From a virus, in the IMG/VR virus record IMGVR_UViG_3300042891_000266, positions 1 through 23,507 of that record: a DNA stretch of 23,507 nt, one strand, 5' to 3'. Below, piece by piece: positions 8,289 through 17,781 of the stretch (position 1 is its first letter; the number at the start of each line of letters is the position of its first letter). Both the position numbers and the translations under genes were made by a program. A model generated the notes under the pieces. The model was not told where the DNA came from. It made no database searches and saw only the letters and a list, made by a program, of their open reading frames with translations.

Positions 8289-8605
8289 GTTGGCCGAACT
8301 GGACAATCCTGCCCACCGAGGAGGGCTACGGACTCTCATGGAAGGTGTGGACCGAGGCTGGCTCAGAGAGTGGCTGGACGGCCACCAAGGAGCGGGCCAT
8401 GAGTGAGGTGGACGAAGCCTGCCGGAGGCTCCACGTGGCCGAGCCGCCCGATCAGCCGCTCTACTGGAACACCGACAAGTTGAAGGCAGCCGTCGAGGCC
8501 ATGAAGGACGCCCAGTGCGTCCCCGAGTCTCACGAGACCGACCAACTCCTGACCCGTGCCATCCATCTGGTCGAGGACGTCATCAGGGAGGAGCCCCTTG
8601 GCTGA
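8285..8605 (+). CDS. Unknown early protein
   Basis: ATG 8285 (ATGA overlap with the previous gene) gives 106 residues. The N-half has three Trp residues and a likely beta hairpin (YGLSWKVWTEAGSESGWTA); the C-half is helical and acidic. No motif is recognised. It overlaps the TTG start of the next gene by eight bases. Confidence 0.55.
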   Translation: MSWPNWTILPTEEGYGLSWKVWTEAGSESGWTATKERAMSEVDEACRRLHVAEPPDQPLYWNTDKLKAAVEAMKDAQCVPESHETDQLLTRAIHLVEDVIREEPLG

Positions 8606-8993
8606 GATAAGGCTAGACACCCCCCATGGCTGCCGGGACGAGTTGGAACGGTGCTCCAACGGCATCGCCACCCTCATCCCCGACCTGACCACCGCCATCG
8701 AGACCTTGGCACGTGTCGAGGTGGAACTGGAACTGGCAGAGGCCCTAGCCACCGTCGAGGTGGCCCAGAACTACCCCAAGATCACCGCCACCGAGATGAA
8801 GGCACGGGTAGTCAGGAAACTGGCAGCGGACGACGGTCGAGGCACCCTAAGGGGCCAGAAGACCGTCTTGTCGTCCACCGTGACTGCCCTGACCGCCCGC
8901 ATGAGGGCCCTGGAGAAGCGGATGTCGGCCGCCCAGTCGGCCTTGAATGACCACCAAGCGGAGGCCCGGTCGGCCGGACTGGTGGGACGGTGA
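8598..8993 (+). CDS. Helical coiled-coil protein with TTG start, unknown
   Basis: GGGAGGAG at 8586-8593 points to TTG 8598 as the start, giving 131 residues; the frame upstream is open but unsupported. Almost the whole chain is predicted helical with heptad-like Leu/Ala spacing (LTTAIETLARVEVELELAEA; later TALTARMRALEKRMSAAQSA), separated by a basic patch (MKARVVRKLAADDGRG). A long coiled coil next to DNA-processing genes suggests a DNA-end or recombination accessory role, but no family is recognised. Confidence 0.55.
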   Translation: MAEIRLDTPHGCRDELERCSNGIATLIPDLTTAIETLARVEVELELAEALATVEVAQNYPKITATEMKARVVRKLAADDGRGTLRGQKTVLSSTVTALTARMRALEKRMSAAQSALNDHQAEARSAGLVGR

Positions 8994-9880
8994 ATGTCGG
9001 CTCACTATTCACAGGGGTCGGAGGCTTCGACCTCGGCCTTGAACGAGCAGGCCACAACATCGTCTTCCAGTGCGAGTCCGACGCCTACCGACGCCGAGTC
9101 CTTAGACGCCATTGGCCAGACGTCACTATCTACGAAGACGTCCGAGGAGAGATCACGGGAGACATTGACCTCCTCTGTGGAGGCTTCCCCTGCCAAGACC
9201 TCTCAGTCGCAGGCAAACGGGCAGGGCTTGCAGGAGATCGGAGCGGCTTGTTCTTCGACGCAGCCCGACACGCTGACAATCTTCTCGGAGATGGAGGGTG
9301 GCTCCTCATTGAGAATGTCCCCGGCCTTCTGTCGAGTAATGAGGGACGGGACATGGGAGTGGTCATCGGGACGCTGGCCGACCTCGGCTTCACTGATCTC
9401 TCCTACAGAACTCTGGACAGCAGATACTTCGGAGTGCCCCAGCGGAGGAGGCGTGTCTTCATCCTTGCCAGACGTGCTACAGGCAGACGTGCCCTCCAGG
9501 TTCTACTTGAGCCCGAAGGCAGCGGCCGGGATAATCCGACGGGCAGAAAAGCGGGGGAAGGCTCTACCAGACCATCTCAACGAGGCCCTGCGGACCCTCG
9601 CAGAGGGGACATCTCATACGCCGTCACCTCGAAGTGGGTCAAAGGCAACGGAGGGCCCTCAGGAGATGAGTGTCAGAACCTTGTCGCAGGTGAGGCGGCT
9701 AACCCCGACGGAGTGCGAGCGGCTTCAAGGCTTCCCGGACGGGTGGACGACGCTCCCGTGACCTCCCCTGTCGATCTCAAGCCTGACGGCCGACGCTACG
9801 CCGCCATGGGAGACGCCGTGACCGTGAATGTCGCCCAGTGGATTGGACAACGCCTAAACGAGCACGGAGGTGACGGATGA
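8990..9880 (+). CDS. C5-cytosine DNA methyltransferase (Dcm-like), motif IX out of frame
   Basis: GTG 8990 gives 296 residues with class C5 methyltransferase motifs I (SLFTGVGGFDLG, 5-16), IV (GGFPCQDLS, 64-72, catalytic Cys68), VI (ENVPG, 108-112), VIII (QRRRRVFIL, 151-159) and X (MGDAVTVNVAQWIG, 273-286). The enzyme transfers a methyl from S-adenosylmethionine to cytosine, probably for protection from host restriction. The expected motif IX (RRLTPxECxRLQGFPD) is absent from this frame; it is encoded in the +1 frame of the same DNA (9690-9746). Either two compensating indels, frameshifting or genuine dual coding explains this. Motif X has Asp in place of the usual Asn (GDAV for GNAV). Activity is therefore uncertain. 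Confidence 0.8.
   Translation: MNVGSLFTGVGGFDLGLERAGHNIVFQCESDAYRRRVLRRHWPDVTIYEDVRGEITGDIDLLCGGFPCQDLSVAGKRAGLAGDRSGLFFDAARHADNLLGDGGWLLIENVPGLLSSNEGRDMGVVIGTLADLGFTDLSYRTLDSRYFGVPQRRRRVFILARRATGRRALQVLLEPEGSGRDNPTGRKAGEGSTRPSQRGPADPRRGDISYAVTSKWVKGNGGPSGDECQNLVAGEAANPDGVRAASRLPGRVDDAPVTSPVDLKPDGRRYAAMGDAVTVNVAQWIGQRLNEHGGDG
8994..9761 (+). CDS. Overlapping +1-frame protein within the methyltransferase gene
   Basis: ATG 8994 lies four bases after the methyltransferase GTG, with GGTGGGA (8981-8987) at better spacing to this ATG. It opens a 255-residue frame with no stop. The first 105 residues are Ser/Thr-rich and low-complexity. Residues 138-200 contain PTELWTADTSECPS, SSLPDVLQADVPSRFYLSP and GIIRRAEKRGKALP, which I recall as a recurrent protein family in phages and bacteria. 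Residues 233-251 hold methyltransferase motif IX (VRRLTPTECERLQGFPDG), then the frame stops. It may be a separate protein, a C5-methyltransferase target-recognition part, or a shadow frame that kept homology. Confidence 0.45.
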   Translation: MSAHYSQGSEASTSALNEQATTSSSSASPTPTDAESLDAIGQTSLSTKTSEERSRETLTSSVEASPAKTSQSQANGQGLQEIGAACSSTQPDTLTIFSEMEGGSSLRMSPAFCRVMRDGTWEWSSGRWPTSASLISPTELWTADTSECPSGGGVSSSLPDVLQADVPSRFYLSPKAAAGIIRRAEKRGKALPDHLNEALRTLAEGTSHTPSPRSGSKATEGPQEMSVRTLSQVRRLTPTECERLQGFPDGWTTLP

Positions 9881-14940: not shown

Positions 14941-15488
14941 TGGACCGGGCTGGCACTGCACCCCACATCCGAGTCGTCCTCACCGACTGGGAGTTGGACC
15001 GAGTCCACCATGTCGGGGAGCAGCGGATGAAGTTGAACTCCGGCAACAGGAACGCTGCCCACTATCAGGATGTCTCAAGGCAACAGGACCGCCAGATAGC
15101 CGAGCCAGCTGCCGCCGCCTGTGAGTGTGCGGCCGCACGAGCCATGAACCGATACTGGCATGCCTCCTACTGGTCGGAGGGCAGCCATCAGCAGTTCAAG
15201 GACACCCCCGATGTCGGGGAGAACATCGAGGTCCGCCGGGTCCGCTACCCCAACGCCCGCGGCTTTGCCGTCGGTGAGAAGGACCGCCACCAGATCGTCG
15301 TGGCCTGCTTCGTGGAGTCTGAGGAGGACTTGGACGTGGTGAGGGTGCTGGGCTGGATGCACGGTGCCACGGCCCTCAACCTTGGCCAGATGACCGACTA
15401 CGGCCGCCTCCGGGCCCCGATCTCAGCCCTCAGCCTTGACGGCATGAACGGAGAACTAGTCGAGCCGAGCATGGCGGTGGCGGCATGA
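14940..15488 (+). CDS. Unknown phage protein with DVG-IEVRRVR motif
   Basis: ATG 14940 (TGATG overlap) gives 182 residues; GTG 14937 is an in-frame alternative. The centre holds an Ala-rich helix (PAAAACECAAARAMNRYW, about 58-75) and then PDVGENIEVRRVR (about 90-102) with KDRHQIVVACFV (about 115-126). I recall this YW...DVG..IEVRR pattern from uncharacterised actinobacteriophage proteins; the Asp, Glu and Lys could be a nuclease core, but this is speculative. It is coupled to the methyltransferase downstream. Confidence 0.6.
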   Translation: MDRAGTAPHIRVVLTDWELDRVHHVGEQRMKLNSGNRNAAHYQDVSRQQDRQIAEPAAAACECAAARAMNRYWHASYWSEGSHQQFKDTPDVGENIEVRRVRYPNARGFAVGEKDRHQIVVACFVESEEDLDVVRVLGWMHGATALNLGQMTDYGRLRAPISALSLDGMNGELVEPSMAVAA

Positions 15489-16453
15489 CGACCTTCAAGG
15501 TGTTGGAAGGCCACGTCATTGACCGACTCGCAGACCTGGAGGATGAAAGCGTCCAGACCTGCATCACTTCGCCGCCCTATTGGGGACTTCGGGACTACGG
15601 CTCCGAGGACCAGCTGGGGCTAGAACCTAGCCCCGAGCGATACGTGAAGAACATGGTCAAGGTATTCCAAGGGGTCAAACGGGTGCTCCGTGAAGACGGC
15701 ACCGTCTGGCTCAACCTTGGGGACTGCTACGCAGGCCCACGCTCGGCTGGTGGGGGCACTATGGCTGGCTTCAACGACCGCTATTTCGGGACGGACAACG
15801 GTGGCGGCAAACAAGCGGACGTAGACACGTCCAAGCCCCCCCGGCCTCAGGTGCAGGGTCTCAAGCCCAAGGACCTCGTCGGCATCCCGTGGCGAGTGGC
15901 TTTTGCCCTCCAGGAGGACGGGTGGTATCTCCGCTCCGACATCATCTGGCACAAGCCCAACCCGATGCCGGAGTCGGTCACTGATCGGCCCACAAGGTCT
16001 CACGAGTACTTGTTTCTCCTGACCAAGTCGCCCCGCTACTACTACGACGCCGACGCCATCAGGGAGGTCGGCACGGTACCTGCTGGAACTCGTGCCGCAA
16101 AGGGAAGCGAAGAACGTCACGGCCAGCCGGGGGTCAGTAGTCGGCCGCCGGAATACAAGGTCTACGACGGACTCAGAAACAAGCGGTCAGTCTGGACGGT
16201 CACGACCAAGCCATTCAAGGGAGCCCACTTTGCAGTCTTCCCTCCCGATCTCATTGAGCCATGCGTGCTCGCAGGTAGCGGACAGGGTGACCTTGTCCTT
16301 GACCCATTCACTGGCTCTGGCACCACTGGCCTCGTCTCACTGAGGCACGGTCGAGACTTCGTCGGCGTAGAACTCAACCCTGACTACGCTCAGATGGCAC
16401 GAGACCGCATCCAGCAGGACGCTCCTCTGTTGAACGAGGAGGTGGCCGCATGA
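15485..16453 (+). CDS. DNA amino-methyltransferase, SPPY type (N4-cytosine or N6-adenine)
   Basis: ATG 15485 (ATGA overlap) gives 322 residues. Motif IV TSPPYWGLRDYG (28-39) comes first and the AdoMet motif I DPFTGSGTTG (273-282) last, the beta-class order. Additional landmarks are VWLNLGDCYAG (74-84), DIIWHKPNPMP (about 152-162) and HEYLFLLTKS (about 172-181). SPPY is most typical of N4-cytosine enzymes but also occurs in N6-adenine enzymes, so the base is left open. No restriction endonuclease gene is adjacent, so it is probably an orphan protective methyltransferase. The following methyltransferase gene overlaps by four bases. Confidence 0.85.
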   Translation: MTTFKVLEGHVIDRLADLEDESVQTCITSPPYWGLRDYGSEDQLGLEPSPERYVKNMVKVFQGVKRVLREDGTVWLNLGDCYAGPRSAGGGTMAGFNDRYFGTDNGGGKQADVDTSKPPRPQVQGLKPKDLVGIPWRVAFALQEDGWYLRSDIIWHKPNPMPESVTDRPTRSHEYLFLLTKSPRYYYDADAIREVGTVPAGTRAAKGSEERHGQPGVSSRPPEYKVYDGLRNKRSVWTVTTKPFKGAHFAVFPPDLIEPCVLAGSGQGDLVLDPFTGSGTTGLVSLRHGRDFVGVELNPDYAQMARDRIQQDAPLLNEEVAA

Positions 16454-17781
16454 GGGAACGCCAACTCCTGATCGGTGACTGCTACGAGCAGATGAAGACC
16501 TTGGACGAGGGAAGCGTGGACGCCATCGTCACCGACCCGCCCTACGGCCTCTCCGCCGAGCCTGACATGGCAGAAGTCCTCCGCCACTGGCTGTCTGGTG
16601 ACGACTACGAGCATCGGGGCAGCGGTTTCATGGGCAAGTCGTGGGACTCCTTCGTCCCCGGCCCCAAGGTCTGGGAGGAGGCATACCGAGTGTTGAAGCC
16701 TGGAGGACACCTCGTGGCCTTCTTCGGCTCTAGGACCTACGACCTCGGAGCCATCGCCATCCGGCTGGCAGGCTTCCACGTCAGAGACCAGTTGCAGTGG
16801 CTCTACGGCTCAGGCTTTCCCAAATCCCTCGACGTGGGCAAGGCCATAGACAAGGCAGCCGGAGCGGAGCGGGAAGTGGTAGGCCGAAGAACTACTGGAA
16901 TCGGCACTGGTCAAGGGACAACACCGATCATGCAAGACACCGACAACATCTATGTCACCGCCCCCGCCACAGATGCCGCCAAGCAGTGGAACGGTTGGGG
17001 CACCGCCCTCAAACCCGCACACGAACCGATAGTCCTAGCCCGCAAACCGCTAGACGGGACGGTTGCCGAGAACGTCCAAGAACACGGGACGGGGGCACTC
17101 AACATTGACGGGTGTCGGATACAGGCCAACGGTGAACGGTTTGGTGGCGGTGCGGCTGGCACTTCTGGCTTCGTCAATGGCTATGCAAGCGGAGACGGCT
17201 TCAAAGAATCCACGGAAGGCCGCTGGCCCGCCAATCTAATCCTCGACGAAGCCGCTGGTGAGATGCTGGACGAGCAGAGCGGGGAGCAGAAGTCGGGGAC
17301 AGCGGTGAGGCGCAATACAGGACACGGACGGCACTTCGGGGTAGCAGACGATGGACTTGGTGACACCACTCCAACACACGATCTTGGCTATGGCGATACA
17401 GGAGGAGCCTCCCGCTTCTTCTACTGCCCCAAGACCTCCAAGGCCGAGCGGAACGCGGGGCTGGAAAAGACCAACAATGTTCACCCTACCGTCAAGCCGA
17501 TCGACCTGATGCGGTGGCTAGTCCGACTGGTCACACCACCCAACGGCACTGTCCTCGACCCGTTCACGGGCTCAGGCTCTACGGGGTGTGCCGCCATCTT
17601 GGAGGACTGTGACTTCATCGGCATTGAGCAGGACCCTGACTACGCCGAGATCGCCAGTGCCCGCATTGACTGGTGGAGCACCTTTGACTCAGGAACTTCA
17701 ACCGAGGCAGCCCTAGAAACTGGCTCAACTGAGTCAAAAAGCAGAGACGCTGGGCAACTGGCCATTGGGGATGTCTTTTGA
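16450..17781 (+). CDS. DNA N6-adenine methyltransferase, DPPY type
   Basis: ATG 16450 overlaps the previous stop and gives 443 residues. Motif IV TDPPYGLSAE starts at about residue 28 (DPPY 29-32), and motif I LDPFTGSGSTG is at about 369-379, again beta-class order. A long central region (about 130-330) with Gly- and Asp-rich segments would be the target-recognition part, and NVHPTVKPIDLMRWLVR precedes motif I. The Ser/Thr/Glu-rich C-terminus looks disordered. Enzymes of this layout methylate adenine at N6. It is the third methyltransferase in the window. Confidence 0.87.
   Translation: MRERQLLIGDCYEQMKTLDEGSVDAIVTDPPYGLSAEPDMAEVLRHWLSGDDYEHRGSGFMGKSWDSFVPGPKVWEEAYRVLKPGGHLVAFFGSRTYDLGAIAIRLAGFHVRDQLQWLYGSGFPKSLDVGKAIDKAAGAEREVVGRRTTGIGTGQGTTPIMQDTDNIYVTAPATDAAKQWNGWGTALKPAHEPIVLARKPLDGTVAENVQEHGTGALNIDGCRIQANGERFGGGAAGTSGFVNGYASGDGFKESTEGRWPANLILDEAAGEMLDEQSGEQKSGTAVRRNTGHGRHFGVADDGLGDTTPTHDLGYGDTGGASRFFYCPKTSKAERNAGLEKTNNVHPTVKPIDLMRWLVRLVTPPNGTVLDPFTGSGSTGCAAILEDCDFIGIEQDPDYAEIASARIDWWSTFDSGTSTEAALETGSTESKSRDAGQLAIGDVF

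Follow-up and report, generated by a model that had tools for sequence, protein, structure and literature searches.

This locus raises the question of how a phage C5-cytosine methyltransferase can be complete when one of its conserved motifs is absent from its own reading frame and is present in another frame of the same DNA. The window, that is the whole stretch of DNA that was analysed, is an entire phage contig of 23.5 kb (23,507 nucleotides), whose genes include those for terminase, portal, helicase and exonuclease. The PF00145 hallmarks I, IV (PCQ), VI (ENV), VIII (QxRxR), IX and X form a complete set at the locus, with motif IX in frame B only (Table 1); frame A contains motifs I, IV, VI and VIII, a TRD-like stretch and motif X, and lacks motif IX. 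Residues 2-163 of frame A match the Pfam family DNA_methylase (E 3e-42), which is also the sole Pfam match of frame B, where residues 213-252 align with positions 257-294 of the 324-position profile, the motif IX end. These frame translations, motif positions and Pfam matches confirm the first-pass annotation, which had described two overlapping frames with motif IX in frame B alone. Motif X of the window reads GD, compared with GN in most relatives. Two more phage DNA methyltransferase genes (phrog_67) lie in tandem at 15485-17781 with a 4-base overlap, which brings the total in this phage to three.

Table 1. Coordinates of the features of the locus in the window.
Feature	Position	Strand	Frame and remarks
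Upstream ORF	8556..8993	+	its TGA (8991-8993) shares bases with the GTG of frame A and directly precedes the ATG of frame B
GTGAATG heptamer	8990..8996	+	frame-A GTG, TGA of the upstream gene and frame-B ATG interlocked
Frame A (alpha), putative C5-cytosine methyltransferase large subunit	8990..9880	+	GTG 8990 to TGA 9880; 296 aa
Frame B (beta), putative nested +1-frame protein	8994..9761	+	ATG 8994 to TGA 9761; 255 aa; wholly inside frame A
Motif I	8999-9037	+	frame A
Motif IV	9179-9214	+	frame A
Motif VI	9302-9328	+	frame A
Motif VIII	9431-9466	+	frame A
Y domain, SLPDVLQ ... RFYLSPKAAAGIIRRAEKRGKALP ... HLNEALRTLA	9462..9602	+	frame B; helical; AlphaFold2 pLDDT about 80-97 at residues 161-207
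RFYLSPKAAAGIIRRAEKRGKALP within Y domain	9498-9569	+	frame B
TRD-like segment, AVTSKWVKGNGGPSGDECQNLV	9620..9685	+	frame A; kept in L005 as AVTSKWRKGSGGPAGDECQNLV
Motif IX, VRRLTPTECERLQGFPDG	9690..9743	+	frame B only
Motif X, RRYAAMGDAVTVNVAQWIGQRL	9791..9856	+	frame A

The answer that we consider probable is that two proteins made from this one stretch of DNA form a single heterodimeric C5-cytosine DNA methyltransferase. Alpha would provide AdoMet binding, the catalytic Cys, motifs VI and VIII, the target-recognition segment and motif X, and beta, read in the +1 frame, would provide the helical Y domain and motif IX. Beta would be initiated independently at its own ATG inside the interlocked heptamer, both frames being served by ribosomes that end the upstream gene or that are drawn by one Shine-Dalgarno sequence. 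The two chains would then assemble, and motif IX of beta would complete the small domain. We infer translation of beta, assembly of the heterodimer, its methylation activity and this route of initiation from sequence comparison.

The GTGAATG heptamer is identical in two relatives of the window (L005 and L085). The stop codon of the upstream ORF, which overlaps the first of the two starts and adjoins the second, may offer a route to reinitiation, and the window's own initiation site has a weak Shine-Dalgarno sequence only. In E. coli, closely spaced start codons in two frames have been shown to be both usable for AUGUG and GUGUG (PMC9841429); GTGAATG is analogous, although not identical, to these dual starts.

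Selection on the two frames was assessed by comparing codon-position variation, region by region, between the window and L005 and L085 (values in this order). The third codon position of frame A (A3) was the most variable between motifs I and IV (0.54, 0.44), between motifs IV and VIII (0.50, 0.40) and in motif X (0.53, 0.43). In the Y domain and in motif IX the most variable was A1, which is the third position of frame B (B3): 0.54 and 0.57 in Y, where A3 was merely 0.17 and 0.20, and 0.35 and 0.58 in motif IX, where A3 was 0.04 and 0.12. The silent codon position thus switches from frame A to frame B and back to frame A, indicating that selection acts on A, then on B, then on A. For motif IX the constrained frame is B, and in the window clade the motif is present nowhere else; upstream of motif VIII, frame B displays no visible constraint except the lack of stops. 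The split with motif IX in B and motif X in A is common to the window, L005, L006, L007 and L085, which form one supported clade on the alpha tree (best identity of the four relatives, 67-82% in the catalytic half), and is also found in L042 and, on another branch, in L295. In the window alone, frame B stays open over IV-VIII in 21% of synonymous recodings (the sequence is G+C-rich), so this is not rare; the excess over chance lies in the conservation of frame B among relatives. The codon-substitution analysis of both frames that the first-pass annotation had proposed gives dual coding, which is close to certain on sequence grounds.

The same tests were extended to more distant relatives. In 81 non-redundant loci, codon-position entropy follows frame A over IV-VIII and frame B in Y; in the Y region the entropy of B position 2 was 0.57-1.12 versus 1.41-1.72 for B position 3, i.e. 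frame-B constraint, and frame A was the less constrained of the two frames. In a set of 149 non-redundant loci, which are related by ancestry and whose counts are not independent trials, the +1 frame was open from motif IV to IV+240 nt in 131, whereas 200 rounds of synonymous recoding of frame A, drawn from the codon usage of each gene, gave 20.3 +/- 4.0 (at most 32); the +2 frame was open over this interval in three. A Shine-Dalgarno 5-mer followed by a frame-B start just before motif IV was present in 57 of these 149 loci, compared with 15.7 +/- 3.7 after recoding and with one in the +2 frame. The +1 frame was open in none of 10 C5-methyltransferases devoid of Y. Stops freely entering frame B in relatives, which had been named beforehand as an observation that would speak against a second gene, were looked for, and no stop was found between motifs IV and VIII in any of the 69 Y-bearing loci tested. 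Right after QRRRR, the same bases encode VFIVG in frame A (V 0.85, F 0.96) and SLSxVLE in frame B (conservation S 0.83, L 0.89, S 0.91, L 0.90, E 0.75).

A Y-domain match was found in 75 of 80 viral relatives picked by frame-A similarity alone, the sole count free of selection on Y, as the other locus sets were partly picked by Y itself. The 'recurrent family' that the first-pass annotation had pointed to in frame B is real. That annotation did not notice how widespread the overlap is: within this branch of phage C5-methyltransferases it is almost universal, even in loci whose motif IX is in frame A. In all collections together, Y follows directly on motif VIII, in the +1 frame, in 250 of the 253 loci with a Y match, P1 dmt included (frame relation determined by script for 246 and by eye for 4); in the remaining three, Y is detached by an insertion (L072 and mycobacteriophage Thibault) or fused in frame (L074). 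The hosts and sources of Y loci include Proteobacteria, Bacteroidota, Acidobacteria, Bifidobacterium and Planctomycetes, and Y loci also occur in more than 500 plasmid records, mostly from E. coli. All those found were with C5-methyltransferases only. Frame A of most loci is complete, and since alpha keeps motif IX there, the role of beta is less obvious in most relatives. In phage P1, the dmt gene (L003) contains a +1-frame ORF of 157 codons with a Y domain (NC_005856.1, 66728-67201), which has an ATG with GGAG 7 nt upstream and is absent from the annotation of the record; unlike in the window, motif IX is in the dmt frame.

Certain loci separate the two frames naturally. L033, L035, L037 and L038 have frame-A stops inside Y and an intact frame B. 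In L072, about 215 aa are inserted in frame A between motif VIII and Y; the Y protein, detached behind the insertion, has an AGGAG and an ATG to itself, and stops occur over IV-VIII in the +1 frame. This Y protein resembles Thibault gp104 over its full length (51%). In Thibault (L171, NC_023738.1, gp102-gp106), HNH endonuclease genes and a frame change interrupt the methyltransferase between motifs I and IV, and gp104, annotated as hypothetical, is a free Y protein. In one clade, represented by L074 and L294, Y is joined in frame to the C-terminus of a complete methyltransferase to give a single chain, and stops are numerous in the +1 frame of L074; the presence of Y and methyltransferase in one chain supports a joint function. 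Sequence comparison establishes the motif split, its conservation, purifying selection on both frames and the linkage of Y with methyltransferases.

The motifs at the end of the enzyme have moved repeatedly. Motif IX was located in frame B in 8 loci by script; on the alpha tree this takes four moves or more, with L295 as an additional case. In L023, L210 and L220 motifs IX and X are both in frame B, and frame A contains I-VIII only. In about 33 loci (L008, L017, L025, L029, L046 and others) motif IX is in a third, downstream ORF, resulting in three-piece methyltransferases; this ORF sometimes has an ATGA-type overlap with the frame-A stop (L029, L259). Frame A of L210 also carries an intein-like insertion exactly at the catalytic PC^Q of motif IV (GGTPC FPGDVRIACRHG ... 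FVVHN CQAF).

For structure prediction, rows from phage records were left out of the input. The AlphaFold2 model of the window's frame B is confident in Y only (residues 161-210, pLDDT 78-97), with helices at 174-187 and 193-207; pLDDT is 66-77 in the motif IX region and mostly near 50 or lower for residues 1-150, and the N-terminus is predicted to be disordered. The model of the L074 fusion has a pTM of 0.86 with pLDDT of about 83-94 in the Y helices, and its residues 1-299 match M.HhaI (VIA Z 25.9, 256 aligned, rmsd 3.6). No match was obtained in a Y-profile sequence search of PDB or with free Y proteins against Pfam and NCBIfam, and a fold search of PDB with the frame-B model gave weak hits only (best VIA Z 3.9). 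The sole catalogue match to Y found is PHROG 16143 (139 positions, labelled DNA methyltransferase), which is matched over Y by the frame-B proteins of relatives (best E 2.7e-15) and weakly by frame B of the window (E 0.055); its function is given by this label alone, and the entry holds nothing on the overlap. Y weakly resembles the in-frame segment that follows motif VIII in some ordinary C5-methyltransferases (GDILETQVDSKYTISDKLWQGHQRR): among 30 sequences, two ordinary enzymes gave HMM E values of 5e-6 and 4e-4, with an hhalign probability of 1.6%. That Y might be this canonical segment, an ancient piece of the enzyme now read in another frame, is a lead only.

Of the three explanations offered in the first-pass annotation, namely a double frameshift, compensating indels and a pair of proteins made from one stretch of DNA, dual coding favours the last. 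A compensating pair of indels around motif IX, whether an assembly or sequencing error or a real pseudogene, would indeed split one methyltransferase into two frames in this way, but the split is present in relatives of 67-82% identity (L005, L006, L007, L085) and separately in L042 and L295, all independent contigs, for which reason the artefact was rejected; as third-position-like variation reveals selection on both frames, we consider either form of this explanation extremely improbable. Nor is it credible that conservation of frame B is a by-product of frame-A protein conservation and codon bias. Strong frame-A conservation over IV-VIII does limit +1 stops, but 131 open frames were observed against 20 after recoding with own codon usage, frame A is less constrained than B in the Y region, and C5-methyltransferases without Y are not open in +1; the recoding and the enzymes lacking Y led us to reject it. 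Programmed ribosomal frameshifting, with a +1 shift after motif VIII into B and a return near 9760-9790, would produce one complete chain, and for L023, L210 and L220 one +1 shift would be enough to join I-VIII, Y, IX and X. Since VFIVG in frame A and CSLSxVLE in frame B occupy the same nucleotides, however, one shifted chain would lose one of these conserved stretches. Frameshifting would also not select an open +1 frame over IV-VIII or Shine-Dalgarno/start pairs there, Y has a separate start in L072, and most loci have a complete frame A including motif IX; this mechanism is thus quite unlikely.

Finally, frame B could be a real nested protein with another function, for example a regulator or a counter-defence protein, motif IX in B being a shadow. 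Y is without a known fold match, and beta may act otherwise where alpha holds all motifs; but Y loci were found only with C5-methyltransferases, L074 and L294 combine Y with such an enzyme in one chain, and in the window clade motif IX is present in frame B alone and is under constraint in that frame. We find this reading unlikely, and a methyltransferase subunit appears to be the likeliest role of the frame-B protein.

Beyond the window, we think it fairly likely that the conserved +1 nested gene encodes a small subunit hidden in nearly all members of a very large branch of C5-methyltransferases from phages and prophages, P1 Dmt among them; the same DNA would code both for the catalytic chain and for Y, which is possibly the old post-VIII segment, and motifs IX and X could migrate between frames. 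There is little documentation, for bacteria or phages, of same-strand nested overlapping genes that are this long and are kept in phages with many groups of hosts. If this proposal is true, the annotation of hundreds of phage methyltransferases covers only half of the system, activity may have escaped assays in which one chain was cloned on its own, and P1, as a model phage, lends itself readily to a bench test. These loci would also constitute a natural experiment in which an enzyme segment leaves its frame yet is supplied in trans, re-fusion in L074 and L294 being the reverse step.

The small subunit of M.EcoHK31I is read in a different frame within the gene for the large subunit, and M.EaeI is alike; the window has this layout too. 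M.EcoHK31I and M.EaeI are bacterial restriction-modification enzymes, whereas the window locus belongs to a phage; in contrast with these two systems, alpha and beta of the window start at almost the same point, and the nested ORF is present in hundreds of loci even with motif IX in alpha. When 395 genomes of one order were searched for relatives of M.EcoHK31I, 8 had Y loci, none of which was identified as EcoHK31I. A literature search of open-access papers retrieved articles on M.EcoHK31I but no earlier description of the widespread nested gene. The motif split of the window (alpha, I-VIII, TRD and X; beta, IX) is that of M.EcoHK31I, whose large subunit carries I-VIII, TRD and X and whose small subunit carries motif IX only (PMC3404938). 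M.AquI is a two-chain C5-methyltransferase split into I-VIII and IX-X (PMC3404938), like L023, L210 and L220 with I-VIII in A and IX-X in B; the window differs from it in that motif X stays in alpha and the genes overlap almost entirely. In conclusion, the window is by its motif split a new member of the M.EcoHK31I kind, and the larger finding is the conserved nested gene across phages, P1 included.
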